NCBI RefSeq assembly: GCF_013402795.1
Contig: NZ_CP058595.1
Span: 3,078,001 to 3,142,000, forward strand
Length of the DNA: 64,000 nt
Source of the DNA: Costertonia aggregata
Lineage (GTDB): Bacteria > Bacteroidota > Bacteroidia > Flavobacteriales > Flavobacteriaceae
Direction of reading: 5' to 3'
This document shows, one piece after another, positions 2,076 to 18,690 of the stretch. A model generated the notes under the pieces. That model did not search any database, had not been told where the DNA came from, and saw only the letters and a list, made by a program, of their open reading frames with translations. The stretch's first letter is position 1. Each line of letters starts with the position of its first letter. A program made the translations under genes and the position numbers.

Positions 2076-3467
2076 TTATAGGTGAATTACTTCGTCATAA
2101 GCGTCGGCAACGGCTTCCATTACCGCTTCGCTCATGGTGGGATGCGGGTGTACGGCCTTTAAGATCTCATGCCCAGTGGTCTCCAATTTACGAGCGACCA
2201 CAGCCTCGGCAATCATATCGGTAACACCGGCACCGATCATATGGCAGCCTAGCCATTCGCCATATTTGGCGTCGAAAATAACTTTGACGAATCCGTCGGA
2301 AGTACCCGAAGCTTTTGCTTTTCCACTAGCCGAAAAGGGGAACTTACCGATTTTGATATCCAGCCCTTTTTCTTTTGCCTGTTTTTCCGTTAACCCGACC
2401 GAAGCCACTTCAGGAGCACAATACGTACATCCGGGTATATTGCCATAATCCAACGGTTCAACATGCATACCCGCAATTTTTTCTACACAGAGAATACCTT
2501 CTGCAGATGCAACGTGTGCCAGTGCGGGACCGGCAGTAACATCACCAATAGCGTAGTATCCGGGGATATTGGTCTGGTAAAAGTCATTGACCAGGATTTT
2601 ATCCCTATCCGTGGCAATGCCAACGTCTTCTAGGCCTATATTTTCAATGTTGGTCTTGATGCCTACTGCAGAAAGAACAATATCCGCTTCCAAAACCTCT
2701 TCGCCTTTGGAAGTTTTGACAGTAACTTTGGAAACGTCTCCGGAGGTATCCACTTTGGTAACTTCTGATGAGGTCATGATTTTTATACCCGATTTCTTGA
2801 AACTGCGTTCCAGTTGTTTGGACACTTCCTCATCTTCTACAGGAACAATGTTGGGTAAAAATTCAACAACGGTAACCTCGGTACCCATTGCGTTGTAGAA
2901 ATAAGCAAATTCAATACCAATGGCACCACTACCTACAACAACCAGTTTTTTAGGTTGTTCCTTTAAGGTCATTGCCTCACGGTATCCTATTATTTTTTTT
3001 CCGTCTTGCGGTAAACTCGGTAATTCCCTGCTTCTTGCACCAGTTGCTACGATGATGTGGTTGGCGGAATACTCGGTTTCTTTCCCATCTTCGCTTTTGA
3101 CCGAAACTTTTTTACCGGACTTTAAGGTGCCGAAACCATTGATCACTTCAATTTTATTCTTCTTCATCAAAAACTGTACGCCCTTGCTCATGCCATCCGC
3201 TACGTTTCTGCTGCGTTTTACAACTGCATCAAAATCCTTGTCAACACCATCTGCCTTTAGGCCATAATCGCCGGCATGTTTTAGATATTCAAACACTTGA
3301 GCCGATTTCAACAATGCTTTGGTAGGAATACAACCCCAATTCAAACAAACGCCACCTAGGCTTTCCTTTTCAATAATTGCGGTTTTTAATCCCAATTGTG
3401 AGGCTCTGATAGCGGTTACATACCCTCCGGGACCACTACCTAAAACAATAACATCAAAATTGCTCAT
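2076..3467 (-). CDS. lpdA: Dihydrolipoyl dehydrogenase (E3)
   Basis: Reoxidises the dihydrolipoyl groups of 2-oxo-acid dehydrogenase complexes with NAD+. The FAD-binding GSGPGGY motif is near the N-terminus, the redox-active disulfide is in GGVCLNWGCIPTKALL, the NAD site is GSGAIGIEFAYFY, the second FAD site is YAIGDV, and the C-terminal active-site base lies in AVHPHPTMSEAV. I use the ATG at 3467 (protein MSNFDVIVLGSG...); an upstream in-frame ATG at 3515 would add 16 residues that do not fit the family. No E1 or E2 gene is adjacent. Length, 463 residues, is standard. Confidence 0.97.
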   Translation of the reverse strand: MSNFDVIVLGSGPGGYVTAIRASQLGLKTAIIEKESLGGVCLNWGCIPTKALLKSAQVFEYLKHAGDYGLKADGVDKDFDAVVKRSRNVADGMSKGVQFLMKKNKIEVINGFGTLKSGKKVSVKSEDGKETEYSANHIIVATGARSRELPSLPQDGKKIIGYREAMTLKEQPKKLVVVGSGAIGIEFAYFYNAMGTEVTVVEFLPNIVPVEDEEVSKQLERSFKKSGIKIMTSSEVTKVDTSGDVSKVTVKTSKGEEVLEADIVLSAVGIKTNIENIGLEDVGIATDRDKILVNDFYQTNIPGYYAIGDVTAGPALAHVASAEGILCVEKIAGMHVEPLDYGNIPGCTYCAPEVASVGLTEKQAKEKGLDIKIGKFPFSASGKAKASGTSDGFVKVIFDAKYGEWLGCHMIGAGVTDMIAEAVVARKLETTGHEILKAVHPHPTMSEAVMEAVADAYDEVIHL

Positions 3468-3498
3468 ATCTGTATTTTTCTGTGTGATTTTTGAAGTG

Positions 3499-3506
3499 CA
3501 AAAGTA
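3499..3506 (-). promoter_or_regulatory. Candidate -7 element (TACTTTTG) for lpdA
   Basis: On the minus strand the sequence is TACTTTTG, matching TAnnTTTG, 31 bases before the ATG at 3467. It lies downstream of the longer in-frame ATG at 3515, which supports the shorter start. No convincing -33 element. Confidence 0.4.
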
Positions 3507-3515
3507 CAAAACCAA

Positions 3516-3975
3516 ACTTAAAACCCATAAAGGGGTATAAGGTTAATTTTTGGCTAAAACACAAAGTAATATATAGATGCTGTCTATTGAATTTTTTTAT
3601 ATTGAAAGCGCTTGAACCCCCTTTGGGAATGGATTGGGAAACCCAATCATTTCCTTTTATCAACTTGGCAAAAACATATATTTGTCCAATATAGCCTGCA
3701 CAATGCTATAATTGACGATGGAATGGCCCCGGTTAGGGCACGTTCCTCGTTCCTCGTTTCATGAAATCAAAATTGAAATCATCAATCTAGTCCAAGGCAT
3801 CAAAAAAGGCAGCTTGGACCTTTGTACTATAAAGAAATCGTTTCTTTTTTATTCTCGACGGTTTATGAAATTTGTTATCCCAATGGCGGCGGGACTTCTT
3901 TGCATCCTTGATCAAAAAATCTATCCATCAGCTCCACAATATTTTCTTGATACTTCGTGGGTCAAAGTATACCGA
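3516..3975. other. Intergenic stretch without a supported gene
   Basis: About 460 bases between lpdA and msrB. Open frames here have no recognisable domain. One minus-strand frame at 3875-3961 encodes a short protein-like tail (YQENIVELMDRFF, ending EVPPPLG) and may be debris of a lost gene. A short tandem CGTTCCT CGTTCCT occurs near 3741. Confidence 0.5.
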
Positions 3976-10197: not shown

Positions 10198-11007
10198 ATG
10201 AAAAAAATAATATTGGTATTCGCCATTTTTTTTGGTATCACCGCATGTAAAACAAATCCGTTTACCGGGAAGAAAACACTAAATTTTTATCCGAATAGTC
10301 AAATATTCCCCATGGCCTTTGCTCAATATGACCAGTTTTTGAACGAGAACAATGTCGTTGAGAGTACTTCCGAAGCGCAGATGATAACCAAGGTTGGCCA
10401 AAGAATATCTTCGGCAGCGGAGCGGTGGTTGACCGCTAATGGGTACCCAGGCTATTTGAAGGATTATAAATGGGAATATAAATTGGTTAAAGACGAGACC
10501 GTGAACGCATGGTGTATGCCAGGGGGTAAAATCGTTTTTTATACCGGAATAATGCCTATTTGCGATGGTGAGACCGGAGTTGCCGTTGTCATGGGCCACG
10601 AGGTTGCCCACGCACTGGCAGACCATGGAGCGCAACGTATGAGTGCGGGTATGGTTCAACAATTGGGCGCGGTTGCGGGCAATGTGGCCATTAAAGATCC
10701 GCAAAAGCGAAATATCTTCAATCAATCTTATGGGATAGTATCCTCAGTAGGAGGTATGCTCCCATTTAGTAGAAGTCATGAGACCGAGGCAGATAGGATC
10801 GGTCTTCAAATAATGGCGATTGCCGGTTACAATCCCGATGAGGCCGCAGATTTATGGAGACGTATGAAAGCAAAGAGTGGAGGACAGGCATCACCTGAAT
10901 TTATGAGTACACACCCTTCAAATGATACCAGAATCAGTAATTTAACGCAATGGGCCCCTTTGGCCAAGCAAGAAGCTGCTAAGTTTGGCGTTACTTCTTT
11001 CAGATAA
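10198..11007 (+). CDS. M48-family zinc metalloprotease, lipoprotein
   Basis: 269 residues with a lipoprotein signal (FGITAC, Cys17), so envelope-anchored, probably in the periplasm. Zinc site: MGHEVAHALADH (HExxH) with the third ligand Glu in SHETEADRIGLQIM. CMPGGKIVFYTG before it is typical of the M48 (BepA/LoiP/Oma1-like) group that degrades misfolded envelope proteins. No TPR region follows, so it is closer to LoiP/YggG than to BepA. A hairpin terminator follows at 11042. Confidence 0.92.
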   Translation: MKKIILVFAIFFGITACKTNPFTGKKTLNFYPNSQIFPMAFAQYDQFLNENNVVESTSEAQMITKVGQRISSAAERWLTANGYPGYLKDYKWEYKLVKDETVNAWCMPGGKIVFYTGIMPICDGETGVAVVMGHEVAHALADHGAQRMSAGMVQQLGAVAGNVAIKDPQKRNIFNQSYGIVSSVGGMLPFSRSHETEADRIGLQIMAIAGYNPDEAADLWRRMKAKSGGQASPEFMSTHPSNDTRISNLTQWAPLAKQEAAKFGVTSFR

Positions 11008-11041
11008 ATTTACGCACAGGATTGTGAATAATTGTATATTG

Positions 11042-11067
11042 AAGCCGCTCTTTACGAGCGGCTTTTA
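11042..11067 (+). terminator. Rho-independent terminator of the M48 protease gene
   Basis: 9-bp stem AAGCCGCTC (11042-11050) / GAGCGGCTT (11056-11064), five-base loop, T-rich tail. It lies 35 bases after the stop and just before the transporter gene. Confidence 0.85.
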
Positions 11068-11078
11068 ATTTTTAAGAT

Positions 11079-12401
11079 ATGGTCAAGGCATTAGCGATAA
11101 AAGGAAGCAAAAAATTGTTGAATGCTTGGGCATTTTATGATTGGGCAAATTCGGTCTACAGTCTGGTAATAGCATCTGCCGTGTTTCCTATTTTTTACGG
11201 AGCTCTTTTTAGGGTAGCGGAAATTGAAAAGGTCACTGTTTTTGGTGGGGAAATCGCTCGGGCTCCCCTAATAAGCTACACTACATCGGCCGCATTTCTA
11301 TTCATCGCCATTATTACACCGTTGTTATCCGGTATAGCCGATTATTTGGGCAACAAGAAAGTGTTTATGAAATTTTTCTGCTATCTCGGGGGGATTTCAT
11401 GTATTGGCCTGTATTGGTTTTCTTTGGAAAATATTTACTTGGGGCTCATATGTTATTTCTTTGGTTTGGTTGGTTTTTGGGTGAGTTTTGCCATTAATAA
11501 TTCATATTTGCCCGATGTGGCCTTCCCCGAACAGCAAGACCGCATTAGTGCCAAAGGGTTTTCTATGGGCTATATAGGCAGTGTTATCCTATTGTTGTTC
11601 AATTTGGCAATGGTCATGAAACCAGATTTTTTTGGTATAACTTCAGATGAAAGTGGAGCTGCAGAAATAAAAGCAATGAAGTACTCCTTTGTTTCGGTAG
11701 GTATCTGGTGGATAATCTTTGCACAATACACCTTTTATCACTTACCAAAGGGATACAAAAAAGAAGGTGAACGAAAAAATATAATACTCAATGGGTTTAA
11801 GGAGCTAAAAGGCGTGTGGCAGCAACTAGGCAACGAAGTAAGATTAAAACGATACCTAGGTGCGTTTTTTGTATATAGTATGGCAGTACAGACCGTAATG
11901 CTTATCGCTACATATTTTGGTGAGGAAGAGATTGATTGGGGCTCCGACAGCGAACGCACTACAGGTTTGATTATCAGTATTTTGGTCATTCAAATAGTTG
12001 CTATTTTGGGAGCTACCGTAACAGCTTGGGCATCCAACGCGTTCGGAAACATCAGAACATTGGTATTTGTTAATATATTATGGATTCTGATTTGTATCTA
12101 TGCCTATTTTGTAATCACACCAAATGATTTTTATATAGCGGCGGGTTGTGTTGGGCTTGTTATGGGCGGAATACAGGCATTGTCCCGATCTACCTACTCC
12201 AAATTCATTCCCGACACAACCGATACTACTTCCTTTTTTAGCTTTTATGACGTATCGGAAAAAATAGGTATCGTTATAGGTACCTTTATGTATGGCTTTA
12301 TTGCACAACTTACGGGAAGTATGAGGAATGCAACCATATTTTTGGGTTTGTTTTTCTTAGTTGGGGTTTTGATTTTGATGCGGGTACCAAAAAGGGATTA
12401 A
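11079..12401 (+). CDS. MFS transporter of the UMF1 / Atg22-like family
   Basis: 440 residues with about 12 predicted membrane helices. The opening NAWAFYDWANSVYSLVI is the hallmark of the bacterial UMF1 (vacuole effluxer Atg22-like) family, and GGIQALSRSTYSKFIP plus FYDVSEKIGIVIG are later conserved loops. Members are putative effluxers of amino acids or other small solutes; the substrate is not known here. It follows a terminator and seems monocistronic. Confidence 0.9.
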   Translation: MVKALAIKGSKKLLNAWAFYDWANSVYSLVIASAVFPIFYGALFRVAEIEKVTVFGGEIARAPLISYTTSAAFLFIAIITPLLSGIADYLGNKKVFMKFFCYLGGISCIGLYWFSLENIYLGLICYFFGLVGFWVSFAINNSYLPDVAFPEQQDRISAKGFSMGYIGSVILLLFNLAMVMKPDFFGITSDESGAAEIKAMKYSFVSVGIWWIIFAQYTFYHLPKGYKKEGERKNIILNGFKELKGVWQQLGNEVRLKRYLGAFFVYSMAVQTVMLIATYFGEEEIDWGSDSERTTGLIISILVIQIVAILGATVTAWASNAFGNIRTLVFVNILWILICIYAYFVITPNDFYIAAGCVGLVMGGIQALSRSTYSKFIPDTTDTTSFFSFYDVSEKIGIVIGTFMYGFIAQLTGSMRNATIFLGLFFLVGVLILMRVPKRD

Positions 12402-12538
12402 GACCAATGACCCGCATTTCTATTTAAGTTTCCTGCTCTTAGTACAATTAGTTTAAGAACCTTACGTTTTCTATAAATTGTAATTATATGTTAAAAGTTT
12501 TTTTTACTTTTCAATATAAATCCGTCAAATAAAAAATT

Positions 12539-13093
12539 ATGTTTAGATTTTTATCCCTTTTTGTTCTGTTTTTGGTAGTGGTTTCCTGTGGAAACAGTGT
12601 TGATTTGGCTATTGATAACCCTACGGACAGGCCCATACAGTTAAAAGTAGATTCCTTGGAGGTAGAAATACCTGCTAAAGAAGTAGTTTGGGTAGAAATG
12701 GGTAAAGGTCAGCACCAAATCACATTGCAGAACGACAGTATCGTTAATTTTGATTTTAATCAAAGTGTTTACATGGTAAACCCCACATTGAGCGAATATT
12801 TGTTGACCGAGGAGTATTATGGTAGCAATGCCTACTATCAAACATACGAGCTAACAGCGGCCATGAGAAAAAAGTCGGTTACGTATTTGGGTATCGAGTT
12901 TGAGGGAAATTATGATGTTGTAAAAGCATTGATAAACCCTGTTACTTGGGATTATGGCCCAAGGGAAACCCTGCCCGAAGTGGTTCAAGTAGAGGAAGGC
13001 GACAACTATACTGTTCTAAAAAAGCTATTGGGTCCTCAAGAATTTATCGATATGGTACAGGCCAGTCGGGAGAACAACACCGCCGTTGAGTAA
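12539..13093 (+). CDS. Lipoprotein of unknown function upstream of speD
   Basis: 184 residues with a lipoprotein signal (LFLVVVSC, lipid Cys17). The mature part begins with a beta-rich stretch (NSVDLAIDNPTDRPIQLKV) resembling a small Ig-like fold, then an acidic tail. Family not recognised. It precedes speD by 32 bases in the same direction, so it may belong to the polyamine-type cluster. The 137-base gap before it holds no visible feature. Confidence 0.7.
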   Translation: MFRFLSLFVLFLVVVSCGNSVDLAIDNPTDRPIQLKVDSLEVEIPAKEVVWVEMGKGQHQITLQNDSIVNFDFNQSVYMVNPTLSEYLLTEEYYGSNAYYQTYELTAAMRKKSVTYLGIEFEGNYDVVKALINPVTWDYGPRETLPEVVQVEEGDNYTVLKKLLGPQEFIDMVQASRENNTAVE

Positions 13094-13125
13094 TCAACCA
13101 ATTCTTTTAACTAAAATTTATCATA

Positions 13126-13500
13126 TTGTACATAGGAATGCATGCCACATGGGACGTTTACAACTGCGATGCGAACAAGCTCTCATTTGTGCCCCATATC
13201 AAAAAGACCCTTCATGCGATAACCGCTACTTTAGGGTTAGAGGAAATAAACGAGGCCTTTAAACAGTTTGAACCGATCGGCGTTACCGGATTTATTTTAT
13301 TGGCAGAAAGCCATATCAGTATTCATACCTGGCCAGAACATAATTACGCTGCCGTGGATGTTTTTTCCTGTAAACCTTTTGATGTTGGTATTGTCACCAA
13401 AGCTTTGAAGGTACTTTTGGCATCTGATGAGGTAAAGGCCAATGTTCTTGAAAGGGGAAAGTTGAGCGTCGCCAAAAAAACATCGTTACCACCTAAATAA
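13126..13500 (+). CDS. speD: S-adenosylmethionine decarboxylase proenzyme
   Basis: Produces decarboxylated AdoMet, the aminopropyl donor for polyamine synthesis, using a pyruvoyl group made by self-cleavage. The 124 residues fit the short prokaryotic (SpeH-type) class. The cleavage site is LAESHISIHTWPEH (Ser of ESH becomes the pyruvoyl group), followed by the family's AAVDVFSC. The start is uncertain: TTG at 13126 keeps the Gly-x-His seen near the N-terminus of relatives, while the first ATG is at 13138 and would remove four residues. Its 3' end overlaps the convergent ATP-grasp gene by 8 bases. Confidence 0.92.
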   Translation: MYIGMHATWDVYNCDANKLSFVPHIKKTLHAITATLGLEEINEAFKQFEPIGVTGFILLAESHISIHTWPEHNYAAVDVFSCKPFDVGIVTKALKVLLASDEVKANVLERGKLSVAKKTSLPPK

Positions 13501-14668
13501 TAAAATGCGACATAAATTCGCAATCATCGGTAATTATTAAATTTTCTTGGGTCCTCAGATTGAGTGCCGAAGGCTTATCGGTATAAAAAATCCCGGTTTG
13601 GTAATAATATTCCTCCCTATCTTGCTCCAAAGGATGAAACCTTTGATACACTCTATCTTGATGTGCATAGTCACCTTTTGACAAAGTAGTCTCTTTGCCC
13701 TTGATTTCTATATTCTCGCCCAATCGCCCATAATGGGGTTTGGTCACAAATTCTTGTAACAAAGGTTTTTCTATAAAAGTTTCCGCAATGTAATCGTTGG
13801 GAAAATGTCTCGTAATATAGGCCAAGAATTTTTTATTCTGCCATAGGGCTGCATACGCGGGGTTTAAAACAGTGCACAAATCTTTGCGAATGATTGCGGA
13901 TAGATCTTTGGCCAGTTGGGGTTCATCGGTAAACATCCAATCCCAGGGTATCATTTTAAACCATATGTCGGCAATTTGATATTCCCCATTAATTTCATAA
14001 AGTATGCCTTCTTCATGCGAGAAAATCACCTCTTCAAGGTTAACGTAGAAAGATTTAAATCCGTTTTCATGGCCGATATCCAAAATTGTGTTCACGTTAA
14101 GGATATCCTCTTTATACCCAAAGGAAGAGCCCAAAATAAAGGGTTCGTCGTGTGAAATTTTATGCTTCAACTTGAGCAAAATTTCCCCTATATCATGAGA
14201 TAGATTGTTGAATTGGGAATTGCCCAAGGGTAACTGCTGATGCTGTAGATCTTGCCAAAGAACCGTTTCGGGCAGCGTGCTACAAGTATCGGCATTGAAC
14301 TCTATAATTTTAGCGTCATTGTTTTTTAATCCGCCGTTTACATCAAACCTACCCAGTAAAAAAGGGTGTTTGTCCCTATTGTTCCAGCTATGGTAAATAC
14401 ATTCTTCGAAAAAAGGAGGTATTGAAAATTCATTCAATCTTTTTTCATCCAATATTTTTTGGGTAGCTTTTTCAAAAAGCAAAAAAGCTTCGGTACAAAT
14501 GCGTTGAAAATTCTCTATCTGAAACCTATGGATGCCCAGAAGTTCTTCGGAAAAGTAATCTTGCTTAAGATACCAATGCAATTGGTGGGGCAACTGTTTC
14601 TTTTTAAGTCGTTTTACTTCTTTGAACCGACTATCCTCCAAACGATCTAAACGACTTCCCTGAACCAT
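13493..14668 (-). CDS. YgiC/YjfC-like ATP-grasp ligase (glutathionylspermidine synthase family)
   Basis: 391 residues of the glutathionylspermidine synthase C-terminal family, without the amidase domain of E. coli Gss. Signature blocks: EFNADTCSTLPET (about 123-135), NPAYAALWQNKKFLAY (269-284), KPHYGRLGENI (310-320). The family joins a carboxylate to an amine with ATP; in Gss glutathione is joined to spermidine. The gene overlaps the end of the upstream YgiB-like lipoprotein gene by 38 bases if the ATG at 14668 is used; a TTG at 14641 would shorten the overlap to 11. The neighbourhood (speD, aminopropyltransferase) points to a polyamine substrate. The actual acceptor is not known. Confidence 0.85.
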   Translation of the reverse strand: MVQGSRLDRLEDSRFKEVKRLKKKQLPHQLHWYLKQDYFSEELLGIHRFQIENFQRICTEAFLLFEKATQKILDEKRLNEFSIPPFFEECIYHSWNNRDKHPFLLGRFDVNGGLKNNDAKIIEFNADTCSTLPETVLWQDLQHQQLPLGNSQFNNLSHDIGEILLKLKHKISHDEPFILGSSFGYKEDILNVNTILDIGHENGFKSFYVNLEEVIFSHEEGILYEINGEYQIADIWFKMIPWDWMFTDEPQLAKDLSAIIRKDLCTVLNPAYAALWQNKKFLAYITRHFPNDYIAETFIEKPLLQEFVTKPHYGRLGENIEIKGKETTLSKGDYAHQDRVYQRFHPLEQDREEYYYQTGIFYTDKPSALNLRTQENLIITDDCEFMSHFII

Positions 14669-15191
14669 AACCTTTTGATGAAGCTCCAGGTACTTTGATT
14701 TTTCTGGAAGTTGCTGTACTTTTTAAATCGTTTTTAAGTCCGGTCGACTTGTTATAAGCTGTAGCGTCTTTATAATAGCTGCTGTTCGGGGTAACGTTGC
14801 CCAGCCTTCTATTAAAATATGAAGCCGCTAAGGAGTAGTATAAAATATTGCGTAGGCCGGATCTTTGGTATTTGGCCTCGTCCGAACCGCTATCAATTTT
14901 AGCCAAAGAAAGTGTATCTACCGTACCTTCCAAAGTATGTACTATGGCTATGGACTTTTCCTTTTCGTCGATTATGCGCTCATCAATGATTTTATAGTCG
15001 TCTCCAGGTTCAATTTCCTCGACTTCAGTGACCGTTCCCTTGGTGGCTTCGTATACCGTTTTGTCTTGTGCATCTTTGATTCTAGGACTGCCATCCCCGC
15101 CGCAACTGGAAACCAAAATACATCCTGATACCGCACTGGCCAACATTATTTTTCTGGAAAATGCAAAGCCGTTTACTGATTTTTTATTCAT
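14631..15191 (-). CDS. YgiB/YjfM-like (DUF1190-type) lipoprotein ending in Gly-Gly
   Basis: 186 residues with a lipoprotein signal (LVSSC, Cys30 or so). The C-terminal half has VTPNSSYYKDATAYNKSTG and a Ser/Gly/Lys-rich tail ending GKSFRSFGG. From memory, E. coli YgiB also has a Ser-rich tail ending in RSMGG and is encoded beside the ATP-grasp protein YgiC, the same pairing as here. The preserved terminal Gly-Gly may be a ligation site for the neighbouring ATP-grasp enzyme (inference). The homology is judged by eye and the N-terminal half is diverged. Confidence 0.7.
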   Translation of the reverse strand: MNKKSVNGFAFSRKIMLASAVSGCILVSSCGGDGSPRIKDAQDKTVYEATKGTVTEVEEIEPGDDYKIIDERIIDEKEKSIAIVHTLEGTVDTLSLAKIDSGSDEAKYQRSGLRNILYYSLAASYFNRRLGNVTPNSSYYKDATAYNKSTGLKNDLKSTATSRKIKVPGASSKGYGSGKSFRSFGG

Positions 15192-15222
15192 CTTTGGATA
15201 GATTGTTTTGCTTTAACGTTAT

Positions 15223-15230
15223 CAAACCTA
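15223..15230 (-). promoter_or_regulatory. Candidate -7 element (TAGGTTTG) for the lipoprotein/ATP-grasp unit
   Basis: Minus-strand TAGGTTTG matches TAnnTTTG, 31 bases before the lipoprotein start at 15191, within the 49-base divergent gap to the gene at 15241. Confidence 0.4.
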
Positions 15231-15240
15231 AATAAATTAT

Positions 15241-16767
15241 ATGAGAAAGAAAATTCTTTTGTCTTTTGCCGTCTTCGTTGCTGGCCTTTGTTCTATTGTT
15301 TATGAACTTTTGGTCAGTACAACGGCTACCTATTTTTTGGGCGACGGGGTAAGACAATTTTCTATTATAATCGGAATTTACTTATTTTCTATGGGAATTG
15401 GTGCATTTTTGTCCAAGTTTTTAACTAAAATGCCGCTACGCTTTTTTGTGCATATTGAGTTTTTGTTGGGATTGATCGGTGGTATATCGGTGCCTTTGTT
15501 ATATTTTTTGTTCGTAAACGTAAATTCAATCACGCTACAGATTTTATGTTTGGTGATTATATTCATCATAGGTCTACTTACGGGTATGGAAGTTCCCTTG
15601 CTCACCTTTGCCTCAAACGAGGTGGATTTTAAAAATAATCTTTCCAATGTACTTTCATTGGATTATATAGGAGGCTTATTGGCCACTTTGCTTTTCCCTT
15701 TTATTCTATTGCCTTTTGTTGGGCTTTTTTATTCGTCGTTGATATTCGGGATTTTTAATATAGTATTGGGGTTGGTATTGAACCATTTTTTCTTGAAAAA
15801 ATCCAAAAAGACCCTGTTTTTGGGGCTACTGTCAATGACGGTACTTTTCGCGATCGTATTTTCTGGTGGAAGACTTTTAAAGATATGGGACGACGCCATT
15901 TACAAAAACCCAATTGTACTCAATACCCAAACGCCCTATCAAAAAATTGTGGTAACCAAAAAACAAGAGGATATCAGATTGTATTTGAACAGGGTAATAC
16001 AATTTTCTTCGGCGGATGAATATAGATACCACGAACCCTTGGTTCATGTACCGTTAACGTTGCATAAAAACCCTAAATCGGTTTTAATTTTGGGGGGTGG
16101 GGAAAATTTGGCCAGCAGAGAAGTACTAAAATACCCGAGTGTCGAGAAAATTGATGTGGTAGATATTGACAGTACCATGTTTCATCTGGCGAAGAACAAC
16201 TCCTTTTTTAAGGAAATTAACCAGGGCGCCGCATTAAACAAAAGGGTTAATTTAATTACCGAGGATGCTTTCACGTTTTTATATAATTATCCCAATTCGT
16301 ATGATGTTATCATAGCCGATTTGCCCGATCCGGTAAATGAAGCCATTGCACGGTTGTACAGCAGACAGTTTTTTTTATTGGCAAAGGCCAAATTGAAAGA
16401 GGATGGTCTTTTTGTGACACAATCCGGTGAAATTTATTTTTCAAATTCGGTCTTTAGCTGTATAAACAACACATTGAAAGATGTATTTGAATACAAGCTT
16501 CCGTATCACAATTACATACCTTCTTTTGGCGATTGGGGTTTTGTATTGGCCAGTAGAAACCCTATCGATATAACAGTTAAAAAAAGAAACCTTCCTCAAA
16601 ATCTACAATTTTTGACCGATGAACAATATCAAATGGCTTTTCTTTTTCCAAAGGATATTGAAATTGCACAAACCCAAAAAAATACTTTGGACAGCCCCGT
16701 GATACTCAACTATTTTTTGGAGGATTGGAACAAATGGAAAACCGATTTACAATCAGGTACCAAATAA
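15241..16767 (+). CDS. Membrane-anchored spermidine synthase-like aminopropyltransferase
   Basis: 508 residues. The first about 210 form roughly seven membrane helices (IVYELLVSTTATYFLGDGVRQFS early on is typical of membrane-fused spermidine synthases). The C-terminal domain has DEYRYHEPLVHVPL (the conserved YHE block), the AdoMet loop ILGGGENLASREVL and IDVVDID. The canonical loop is GGGDGGxxREVL, so two glycines and the Asp are altered; the later DxxDP motif is ADLPDP. Probably transfers aminopropyl groups from decarboxylated AdoMet made by the nearby SpeD to an amine at the membrane; acceptor unknown. It is divergent from the lipoprotein/ATP-grasp unit. Confidence 0.85.
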   Translation: MRKKILLSFAVFVAGLCSIVYELLVSTTATYFLGDGVRQFSIIIGIYLFSMGIGAFLSKFLTKMPLRFFVHIEFLLGLIGGISVPLLYFLFVNVNSITLQILCLVIIFIIGLLTGMEVPLLTFASNEVDFKNNLSNVLSLDYIGGLLATLLFPFILLPFVGLFYSSLIFGIFNIVLGLVLNHFFLKKSKKTLFLGLLSMTVLFAIVFSGGRLLKIWDDAIYKNPIVLNTQTPYQKIVVTKKQEDIRLYLNRVIQFSSADEYRYHEPLVHVPLTLHKNPKSVLILGGGENLASREVLKYPSVEKIDVVDIDSTMFHLAKNNSFFKEINQGAALNKRVNLITEDAFTFLYNYPNSYDVIIADLPDPVNEAIARLYSRQFFLLAKAKLKEDGLFVTQSGEIYFSNSVFSCINNTLKDVFEYKLPYHNYIPSFGDWGFVLASRNPIDITVKKRNLPQNLQFLTDEQYQMAFLFPKDIEIAQTQKNTLDSPVILNYFLEDWNKWKTDLQSGTK

Positions 16768-16827: not shown

Positions 16828-17553
16828 TTACCCTTTGGAAATATCTCCAGAACCAGATGTCTTGGTATCTATCTTTTCCGGATTGCCCCTGTAACTAATA
16901 TCCCCTGAGCCAGATACCCGAGCCTTTAAGACCTTGTTTACCGTTACTTGGATATCTGCTGAACCGGATACACTGGCGGTCACGTTATCAGCCTCTAAAC
17001 CATAAGCTTCTACATCGCCAGAGCCTGATATGCTCACGTCAAAATCTTTCGTGCTACCGGCAAAATCCATATCTCCCGAACCCGACATCGATACCGATAG
17101 GTAATCTGTCTCAACATCCATTGTAAGGTTGCCCGAGCCGGACATACTTGTCTTTAATCGCTCAGATCGTATGATCGTCTTTCCAACGATATCCCCAGAA
17201 CCAGAAATGGCTATCCCCTCAATACTTTCTACAGGCACCGTGACCTTGATACCACTTTTCCAGTTTGAAGGTTTTAGATTGACCCCTTTTTCGGTTTTAA
17301 TAACAAGTTTTCCGTTTTTTACTTCTGTTTTAATGTACTCCAAAAGATTTTCCTCGCCCCGTAATGTAATTTCCCCTTCATTGCCTGATACCAAATCTAC
17401 ATCAAACCAGCCTGAAAGCGATATAGATTCATAATCGCCGATAGACCTTTCTATGGTTTTCATATTTCCGTTTCCTTTGATACGTTTTCCCCATTGGGCA
17501 GTGGCCGACAGTGTAAACAATAGTATTAGGGCAAGTGATGTTGATTTTTTCAT
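16828..17553 (-). CDS. DUF2807 (head GIN domain) secreted protein
   Basis: 241 residues with a cleavable signal peptide (LLFTLSATAQWG). The body is a beta repeat with SGSGD-type motifs about every 20 residues (ISGSGDIVG, MSGSGNLTM, SISGSGDVEAY, VSGSADIQV, RVSGSGDISY, TSGSGDISKG), the pattern of the putative autotransporter adhesin head GIN domain. Predicted parallel beta-solenoid in the envelope. Last gene of the ECF operon; 24 bases after the stop of the preceding gene. Function unknown. Confidence 0.88.
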   Translation of the reverse strand: MKKSTSLALILLFTLSATAQWGKRIKGNGNMKTIERSIGDYESISLSGWFDVDLVSGNEGEITLRGEENLLEYIKTEVKNGKLVIKTEKGVNLKPSNWKSGIKVTVPVESIEGIAISGSGDIVGKTIIRSERLKTSMSGSGNLTMDVETDYLSVSMSGSGDMDFAGSTKDFDVSISGSGDVEAYGLEADNVTASVSGSADIQVTVNKVLKARVSGSGDISYRGNPEKIDTKTSGSGDISKG

Positions 17554-17577
17554 GATGTGTTTAGTTTATCGTTTTTT

Positions 17578-18690
17578 TTAATTTTTACTTGTTGATTGAA
17601 TTTTATTGAAGGATACCCCACCATAATCACTGGTAATATAAACCATATTGCCACTATTGGAAGAGCCATGATAGCCTTTATAATACTTTTCGGTTGACTT
17701 CTCATTGCTGATACTGATTTCAAAATCGTCCTTACCACTAACACCTGCATACTCTGTATTGATTTCAAAGTCAAAGTGATACTCAGGGGCATACCCTATT
17801 TTTACGCCAGTGTAATCGGTACGTATTTGTAAGTTACCGGCATCCTCAGCCATTTCCTTTATGCGTATAGACCCATAATCTGCGGTCAAATTTACATTGC
17901 CGTGCAGTGTACCCAATTTAACGTTTATGTACTGCCCATTTCCTTGAACGTTCTGCGCCTCGCCTATTTCCATATTGCCATAATCGCTAGTGTATTGTAG
18001 GTTTTTCATGGTCACTACGGTAGAATTGGTATAATCTGCCTTGATCATAAGGTCACCTGCTTTCTCGATGGTAAAACCCGAATAATCTGCCCTGATCTCA
18101 CCACTGTTTATATAACCTATACTGGATTTTGAAGTGTAGTCGAATTTCAATTGATTGTTACGCCCCCTAAGTTCACCAATTTCTAACCTGCCGTAATCAC
18201 AGTTTATCTTGGCATGCCCATCAACCCTGTCCAAAACAATGTTGCCATAGTCATTGTTCAGATGAACGCTATTTTTTACAGGTAATTTTATGGTATAGTT
18301 TATCTGCATGTTCACATTGTTATTGTTGCCCCAGTTCCAATCCCAACCGTTTTTCTTTTTGTTGAAAACGGTACGTGCCGAGACTACGCTACTGCTAGCT
18401 TCAAAATCTATGGTGATTTCGTCTAGTTTTTGCTTTACTTTTTCTTCGTTGTTGCCATTGGTCTTTACATGTACTTCTATGACGATTTTATCCTCGTTCC
18501 AAGATGTTATATTTAGATTGCCGTAACTGTTTTTAACCTTTAAAAGGGCATCTGAATTAACATCGTACTCTTTTTTTATTGTTTTTTCTTTAGTGTGTTT
18601 TCCTCTGGGTTTGCCATCATGCGCCAAAAGCACAATAGGGAGTACCAAAAGTAACACCGTTACATATTTACATAGTATAGTTCGCATCAT
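17578..18690 (-). CDS. DUF4097-like secreted beta-repeat protein
   Basis: 370 residues with a signal peptide (LLLVLPIVLLAHDGKP). After a Lys-rich linker the protein repeats short beta units centred on DYG or DYT (NDYGNIVLD, CDYGRLEIG, ADYSGFTIE, ADYTNSTVV, SDYGNMEIG, ADYGSIRIK, TDYTGVKIG, SDYGGVSFN). This periodic adhesin-like architecture is seen in DUF4097/toastrack proteins. Its start overlaps the preceding gene (18668-19234) by 23 bases, so it is co-translated with a putative anti-sigma factor. Confidence 0.85.
   Translation of the reverse strand: MMRTILCKYVTVLLLVLPIVLLAHDGKPRGKHTKEKTIKKEYDVNSDALLKVKNSYGNLNITSWNEDKIVIEVHVKTNGNNEEKVKQKLDEITIDFEASSSVVSARTVFNKKKNGWDWNWGNNNNVNMQINYTIKLPVKNSVHLNNDYGNIVLDRVDGHAKINCDYGRLEIGELRGRNNQLKFDYTSKSSIGYINSGEIRADYSGFTIEKAGDLMIKADYTNSTVVTMKNLQYTSDYGNMEIGEAQNVQGNGQYINVKLGTLHGNVNLTADYGSIRIKEMAEDAGNLQIRTDYTGVKIGYAPEYHFDFEINTEYAGVSGKDDFEISISNEKSTEKYYKGYHGSSNSGNMVYITSDYGGVSFNKIQSTSKN

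Follow-up and report, generated by a model that had tools for sequence, protein, structure and literature searches.

In the genome of Costertonia aggregata, four genes in a stretch of 64,000 nucleotides (contig NZ_CP058595.1, positions 3,078,001 to 3,142,000; the window) appear, on a modest balance of the evidence, to form a module that attaches a polyamine to the C-terminal tail of a small lipoprotein. The genes, which encode SpeD, an ATP-grasp ligase of the YgiC/YjfC type, the lipoprotein and a membrane aminopropyltransferase related to spermidine synthase (SpdSyn), occupy window positions 13126-16767 and thus lie within 3.7 kb of each other, as an earlier note on this DNA had claimed (Table 1). 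In such a module SpeD and the aminopropyltransferase would supply or extend the amine. Genome scans with PF02675, PF01564 and PF03738 gave a single match with each model, and all of these matches were within the cluster.

In the mechanism envisaged here, the ligase would activate the C-terminal carboxylate (Gly186) of the neighbouring pre-lipoprotein as an acyl phosphate and would form an amide between it and an amine group of a polyamine. SpeD, together with the membrane aminopropyltransferase, would provide this amine or would lengthen it by aminopropyl transfer. Modification would precede export, the lipoprotein would then be exported and lipidated, and the result would be an envelope protein whose flexible tail is capped by a polycation. 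The lipoprotein is probably the substrate of the ligase; that SpeD and SpdSyn feed the ligase reaction is possible, if somewhat doubtful. The identity of the amine, the order of ligation followed by export and the physiological role are suggested tentatively. The computational evidence consists of the identities of the genes, the intact residues of the ligase, the linkage of the four genes, a tail that is conserved and predicted to be disordered, and a separate candidate polyamine operon.

The ligase (391 aa) matched PF03738 with an E-value of 3.8e-66 (224.2 bits, cut-off 29.3), in agreement with its earlier assignment to the glutathionylspermidine synthase (Gss)/YgiC family. By profile its nearest relatives are YgiC/YjfC (7uk8, E 3.1e-103), followed by Gss and trypanothione synthetase. 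The structural model (pLDDT 95.3) had 7uk6 (YjfC), 7uka and 7uk8 as its top three fold matches, with TM values (by query) of 0.82, 0.76 and 0.78, respectively. The positions equivalent to R316, D318, E330, N332, K498, K533, R538 and R598 of Gss, which we take to serve in Mg, ATP and substrate binding, were conserved in 59 of 59 ligase sequences, so that the ATP/Mg residues are intact. No amidase domain such as that of Gss was found in the ligase, whose sole Pfam domain is PF03738, and it has no signal or membrane segment. In the GSP_synth enzyme family the donor is the C-terminal Gly carboxylate of glutathione. The RefSeq product name of both E. coli YgiC and E. coli YjfC is 'peptide--spermidine ligase'. 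The enzyme is thus a member of the YgiC/YjfC family with intact catalytic residues, and peptide-polyamine ligation is its predicted activity.

The lipoprotein carries a signal ending in LVSSC (Cys30) and a C-terminus ending in GSGKSFRSFGG. The Gly-Gly end (GYGSGKSFRSFGG) is as the earlier note described it, and E. coli YgiB likewise ends in GG (SRSMGG). Pfam and NCBIfam searches gave no match to this protein, and Foldseek found no solved relative of its model (best E 0.68). The model is ordered between residues ~41 and 168 and loose from 169 to 186, the pLDDT of the tail being 54-57. When the 25 lipoproteins encoded beside SpeD/SpdSyn were aligned, the last 12 columns were the most conserved stretch (entropy 0.65-0.68 bits, vs 1.71 elsewhere), with the consensus G[YF]G[SG]G[KR]S[TFS][RK]S[FY]GG. 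All but one of the 25 end in Gly-Gly, the exception (locus L137) ending in SG. For comparison, among 918 other open reading frames (ORFs) of the same loci (non-overlapping longest ORFs of at least 100 aa, not curated genes) GG was the end of 7, and G, S or A the last residue of 210. Locus L137 has two lipoproteins in tandem on the minus strand (2443-3015 and 3314-3811), upstream of one ligase; their ends are RGFSG and SSFSG. Only the first departs from GG within the SpdSyn-linked set, the second having been left out of the tail tally. In the relatives at L054, L055 and L056 a membrane segment (recognized by eye) stands at the N-terminus in place of the lipobox, and the GG tail is kept.

Bacteroidota ligase loci without SpeD/SpdSyn yielded 63 lipoproteins with 48 distinct tails. 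These partners were found with a profile shorn of its last 25 residues, and their selection was therefore independent of the tail. The distinct tails ended in GG (30), GA (5), SS (5), SG (3), GS (2), RG (2) and SA (1); all 48 thus have G, S or A as the last residue. The expectation that the terminal Gly-Gly would be invariant therefore held beside SpeD/SpdSyn (24 of 25) and had to be rejected for the lipoprotein family as a whole. The rule that the tails share is a small last residue, mostly Gly. Because the tails share descent, Fisher values calculated for their ends overstate certainty.

Screening of named genomes with ligase alignment A1 turned up 14 loci, in Maribacter, Cellulophaga, Flavobacterium, Winogradskyella, Portibacter and metagenome-assembled genomes of Bacteroidota. 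The four genes were all present in 13 of these, the exception (L057) being cut by the contig start, and the lipoprotein ended in GG in all 14. Addition of Bacteroidota, E. coli and plasmid loci gave a set of 138 loci, 137 of them with the ligase. Among the places added were 40 of 60 further ligase places from the order of genome G512 (3, L031-L033, were already included and 17 were left out); L129 (= L058) and L024-L026 (= L052, L054, L055) were dropped as duplicates and L126 as a fragment. SpeD and/or SpdSyn was nearby in 27 of the 137 ligase loci, and 21 had all four genes as complete ORFs. In the other 110, cut ends included, tblastn detected neither SpdSyn nor SpeD (30 of these loci hold less than 5 kb, and genes further out would be missed). 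The core profile found a lipoprotein partner in 69 of the 110. At nine loci forming one ligase subclade (L028, L080-L082, L089, L099, L102, L103 and L161) this profile detected no adjacent partner; the partner lipoprotein of these may be elsewhere in the genome.

In a quick tree of 134 ligase rows, from which the linked loci L138, L142 and L144 were left out, the 24 linked ligases and L057 formed one fork of 25 rows (SH-aLRT 94), and the linkage state changed 2 times, against a shuffled mean of 22.5. Six genes that flank the cluster in the window each recurred, within the available flanks, at 8 or all 9 of the Flavobacteriaceae loci, and none of them was seen at the 22 other loci searched; the four-gene set outlasts this change of flanking genes between Flavobacteriaceae and other hosts. 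Counting the Costertonia genome itself, 2 of 149 genomes from the family had the lipoprotein and 18 of 395 from the phylum sample had the ligase. The ligase was present in 88 of 291 genomes of the order of G512 and in 25 of 198 of the order of Portibacter. In the latter order SpeD accompanied the ligase in 16 of the 25 ligase genomes, compared with 12 of the 173 others (p 2.4e-10; the SpeD-ligase overlaps were counted by hand).

SpeD was identified by PF02675 (E 9.9e-31) and TIGR03330 (104 bits, cut-off 75.65). Its first start codon is TTG, with an ATG at 13138, and it contains the Ser/His processing motif ESHISIHTWPE, the residues of which presumably have their customary roles. Profile and motif mark it as a probable S-adenosylmethionine (AdoMet) decarboxylase with AdoMet as the predicted substrate; SpeD homologues with other substrates (Arg/Orn) exist, according to the available part of PMC10407285. 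The aminopropyltransferase matched PF01564 (E 1.5e-44) and NF002956 (544 bits, cut-off 472), and a simple Kyte-Doolittle count gave eight hydrophobic segments. By sequence, the PDB entry closest to its soluble domain is thermospermine synthase 6bq2, followed by the polyamine aminopropyltransferases 3anx/1uir. The window protein carries GGGE and DLPDP motifs; GGGE was found in 26 of 27 aminopropyltransferase homologues and DLPDP in 25 of 27, the misses being the short matches at L142 and L144; that at L144 is a weaker, non-membrane homologue. At the position of GGGE, spermidine synthases usually have GGGD. The nearest structure and the GGGE motif make a larger acceptor plausible, and the acceptor may thus be larger than putrescine.

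The same genome has, at ~1.32 Mb, adjacent genes for an arginine-decarboxylase-like, a ureohydrolase-like (named by eye) and a deoxyhypusine-synthase-like (DHS-like) protein. The NCBIfam scores of these proteins were all under the curated cut-offs, including that of the model 'homospermidine biosynthesis protein' listed for the DHS-like protein. This operon may be a candidate source of bulk homospermidine. Being separate from the cluster, it means that bulk polyamine need not depend on SpeD.

Several observations weigh against polyamination of the lipoprotein tail by this cluster. A cytosolic ligase would have to modify the lipoprotein ahead of its export. The replacement of the usual GGGD by GGGE suggests that putrescine may not be the acceptor of the aminopropyltransferase. 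GG is missing in 18 of the 48 distinct tails outside the linked set, and a distant class of Bacteroidota ligases (L034-L041) has very small partners that end in SS, HA or GS. With the core profile 41 of the 110 loci lacking SpeD/SpdSyn gave no partner, some of them having DUF1190 or class-2 partners. In the order of G512, SpeD and the ligase were not associated (24 of 88 ligase genomes vs 66 of 203 others, p 0.41). The co-occurrence predicted earlier is therefore real for the order of Portibacter and for the 21 four-gene loci, and was rejected as a genome-wide rule. With an association in one order and none in the other, SpeD/SpdSyn seem to have been added to a ligase-lipoprotein core in one clade.

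A further objection comes from the overlap of the two genes. Of the 25 SpeD/SpdSyn-linked pairs, 23 have a ligase ORF that begins within the terminal part of the lipoprotein gene. In 20 of the 25 the codons for the aromatic residue and Gly create an in-frame start, 11 bases ahead of the point where the stop codon ends. All 25 use GGA for the final Gly. Gly-Gly in the linked set is thus under two constraints and partly set by the ligase start, which weakens it as clean evidence. The in-frame starts of the window ligase are ATG 14668 and TTG 14641, both within the lipoprotein gene; the final Phe-Gly-Gly-stop codons (14631-14641) contain the possible TTG start, and TTG 14641 is perhaps the real one. 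Starts further upstream, such as ATG 14668, would bring more of the tail into the overlap. Four lines of evidence argue that Gly-Gly survives as a protein-level signal. At L054, L131 and L133 there is no in-frame start except the last, and the tail is kept upstream of it; at L128 GG is kept and the genes do not overlap; 37 of 57 non-overlapping pairs without SpeD/SpdSyn end in GG (rows not deduplicated, a few DUF1190 genes included); and all four Gly codons occur at the lipoprotein end in loci without SpeD/SpdSyn.

Other explanations of the cluster differ in how much of it they regard as one system. The ligase could draw on the general pool for homospermidine or putrescine, with SpeD and the aminopropyltransferase adding aminopropyl groups to the tail-bound or a membrane amine. 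The candidate operon at ~1.32 Mb fits this, as do the thermospermine synthase relationship and the GGGE motif; moreover, SpeD/SpdSyn look added to a two-gene core, since 69 of the 110 loci pair ligase and lipoprotein without either. The conserved linkage, however, would also fit plain spermidine supply, and we regard a general-pool source as unlikely, though with an appreciable chance of being correct. It is rather unlikely that two envelope systems are simply adjacent, a ligase-lipoprotein unit and a SpeD-aminopropyltransferase pair acting on something unrelated in the membrane, for example a lipid. That SpeD and the ligase are not associated in the order of G512 is in line with such a separation, and other substrates are weighed for aminopropylation in the sections seen of Ravi et al. 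2024 (PMC11237479), citing Li 2019. In contrast, the association in the order of Portibacter (16/25 vs 12/173) and the grouping of the linked ligases in one clade are as expected of a working unit.

The remaining two possibilities concern the tail itself. If the enzymes belonged to ordinary polyamine or glutathionylspermidine metabolism and had nothing to do with the neighbouring lipoprotein and its low-complexity R/S/G tail, the simple composition of the tail, the overlap of its terminal codons with the ligase start and the largely compositional resemblance to DUF1190 tails (66.9 vs 72.2) would be accounted for. This is improbable: the tail is more conserved than the remainder of the lipoprotein, the four genes stay linked amid changing flanks, GG or another small last residue is found in non-overlapping loci too, all four Gly codons being used, and the ligase is devoid of the Gss amidase domain. 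The tail could also serve the ligase in docking or regulation and not as the amide acceptor, as conservation reaching ~12 residues inward and the occurrence of G, S or A as last residue outside the linked set might suggest; continuation of the conservation to the exact C-terminus, and the enzyme family's use of glutathione, through its C-terminal Gly carboxylate, as donor, make this a very improbable explanation. Tail polyamination by the four-gene cluster is the reading that we favour, as the most economical one. A bolder version of it, a C-terminal tagging system in which a dedicated ligase reads the short Gly-Gly tail and caps envelope lipoproteins with a polyamine, this polyamine is lengthened on the protein by the SpeD-fed aminopropyltransferase and the envelope acquires a tunable polycationic brush, would be a long shot.

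In the literature covered, parts of which were available as excerpts, neither the YgiC/YjfC ligases nor the SpeD-associated membrane SpdSyn have a settled natural substrate. The cluster ties both enzyme families to one small lipoprotein with a conserved, exposed tail, which would be a directly testable common substrate. If the proposal is true, bacteria would modify envelope proteins covalently with polyamines, a type of tail modification new for these organisms, and this would probably influence the charge of the surface, the stability of the membrane and the tolerance of cationic compounds; by analogy, E. coli YgiB and YjfM would be implicated too. The statement in the earlier note that no report of the reaction was known is too strong, given the RefSeq names of YgiC/YjfC and the conjugation of spermidine to the C-terminal carboxylate of SUMO, described in the accessible text of PMC12270671. 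YgiC/YjfC are termed 'peptidylpolyamine synthetases' in the portion seen of PMC12568646, and a 2023 Biochemistry paper, available by its title, names a peptide-spermidine ligase. The ligation chemistry itself is therefore already known; apparently new are an endogenous lipoprotein substrate and a linked aminopropyl supply. No report of polyamination of a bacterial lipoprotein was found among the papers listed from the literature searched, which holds few subscription papers and was represented by titles, openings of abstracts and excerpts.

The coordinates of the cluster are collected in Table 1. A Pfam scan of seven genes (window 10198-16767) found no PspA, and DUF350 had 0 matches in the whole genome, confirming the suspected lack of this partner. 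Ahead of speD lies a gene for a 184-aa lipoprotein (12539-13093), and past the cluster there are two repeat-rich proteins, adhesin-like by eye (16828-18690); among the 31 loci searched, these neighbours are conserved in Flavobacteriaceae only.

Table 1. Features of the four-gene cluster (window coordinates)
Feature	Position	Strand	Basis
speD, class 1b-type S-adenosylmethionine decarboxylase (proenzyme), predicted	13126..13500	+	PF02675, TIGR03330, ESHISIHTWPE
ATP-grasp ligase, YgiC/YjfC (GSP_synth) family	13493..14668 (longest ORF)	-	PF03738
Lipoprotein, 186 aa, proposed substrate	14631..15191	-	Cys30 signal, C-terminus GYGSGKSFRSFGG
Conserved C-terminal tail, 13 codons + stop	14631..14672	-	lowest-entropy 12-column window, 25 sequences
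Membrane-anchored aminopropyltransferase: membrane N-terminal half, SpdSyn-like C-terminal domain	15241..16767	+	PF01564, NF002956

The lipoprotein had been described as YgiB-like, and as a statement of family membership this was rejected: it has no PF06693 (DUF1190) match even at E<=10, the likeness being limited to a GYMMGR-like segment and the tail. A relative at L031 gave a sub-threshold PF06693 match (E 0.11). Recruitment of YgiB by an iterative profile was discounted, as the first match was confined to the signal-peptide region (E 0.0028, then 8.7e-4). The hhalign comparison with DUF1190 aligned the tail only (probability 96.9, E 1.9e-10), and this similarity is mostly composition (score 72.2 vs 66.9 for the best of 60 column shuffles). 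With the tails gapped, a short LLYG-MGYMMGR segment aligned to YgiB MPLMAGYMMGRLMGG (48.6 vs 32.5 for the best of 60 local shuffles), and a distant kinship of the lipoprotein and DUF1190 is possible. Among 12 aligned DUF1190 proteins (alignment A5, which omits the DUF1190 genes at L064, L067 and L073) 11 end in GG and one in CG, and all 12 have R-x-G-[FYW]-G upstream; a ligase was present in the examined stretch for 11, L077 having none. The DUF1190 protein of Asticcacaulis (L071:3281-3988) ends in Cys-Cys-Gly and not in Gly-Gly. Several of the small partners at L034-L041 have a GFGRSG-like motif, and a further small lipoprotein lies ahead of them. A cyanobacterial plasmid ligase (L076:2814-3944) adjoins a protein of 376 aa whose R/S/G tail ends in GGSSS, possibly a partner outside the sampled phyla.

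Among known systems, the E. coli pairs YgiB-YgiC and YjfM-YjfC share the ligase family, fold and catalytic positions with the cluster, and YgiB (SRSMGG) and YjfM (GHWGG) have, like the window lipoprotein, a Gly-Gly end encoded beside the ligase. Unlike these pairs, the cluster has SpeD, a membrane aminopropyltransferase, overlapping genes and a lipoprotein outside DUF1190, in a genome devoid of DUF350. Gss and trypanothione synthetase have the ATP-grasp synthetase domain and the substrate positions in common with the window ligase, which is without the N-terminal amidase domain of Gss. The membrane aminopropyltransferase exceeds the cut-off of NF002956/PRK03612 membrane SpdSyn, but is linked to a ligase-lipoprotein pair. 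The PspA operons described in the available sections of Ravi et al. 2024 (PMC11237479), with an ATP-grasp ligase, DUF350, DUF1190 and AdoMet decarboxylase or membrane spermidine-synthase fusions, and PspA-CesT/Tir among them, likewise bring polyamine genes together with an ATP-grasp ligase and a lipoprotein; as far as those sections show, the cluster differs in having ligase, SpeD and membrane SpdSyn together, a lipoprotein of an unnamed family and no DUF350. The SUMO-spermidine reaction, in the account given by the accessible text of PMC12270671, uses eukaryotic E1/E2 chemistry instead of an ATP-grasp enzyme and involves no envelope protein, yet it is ATP-dependent and places spermidine on a C-terminal carboxylate, as would be the case for the window lipoprotein.

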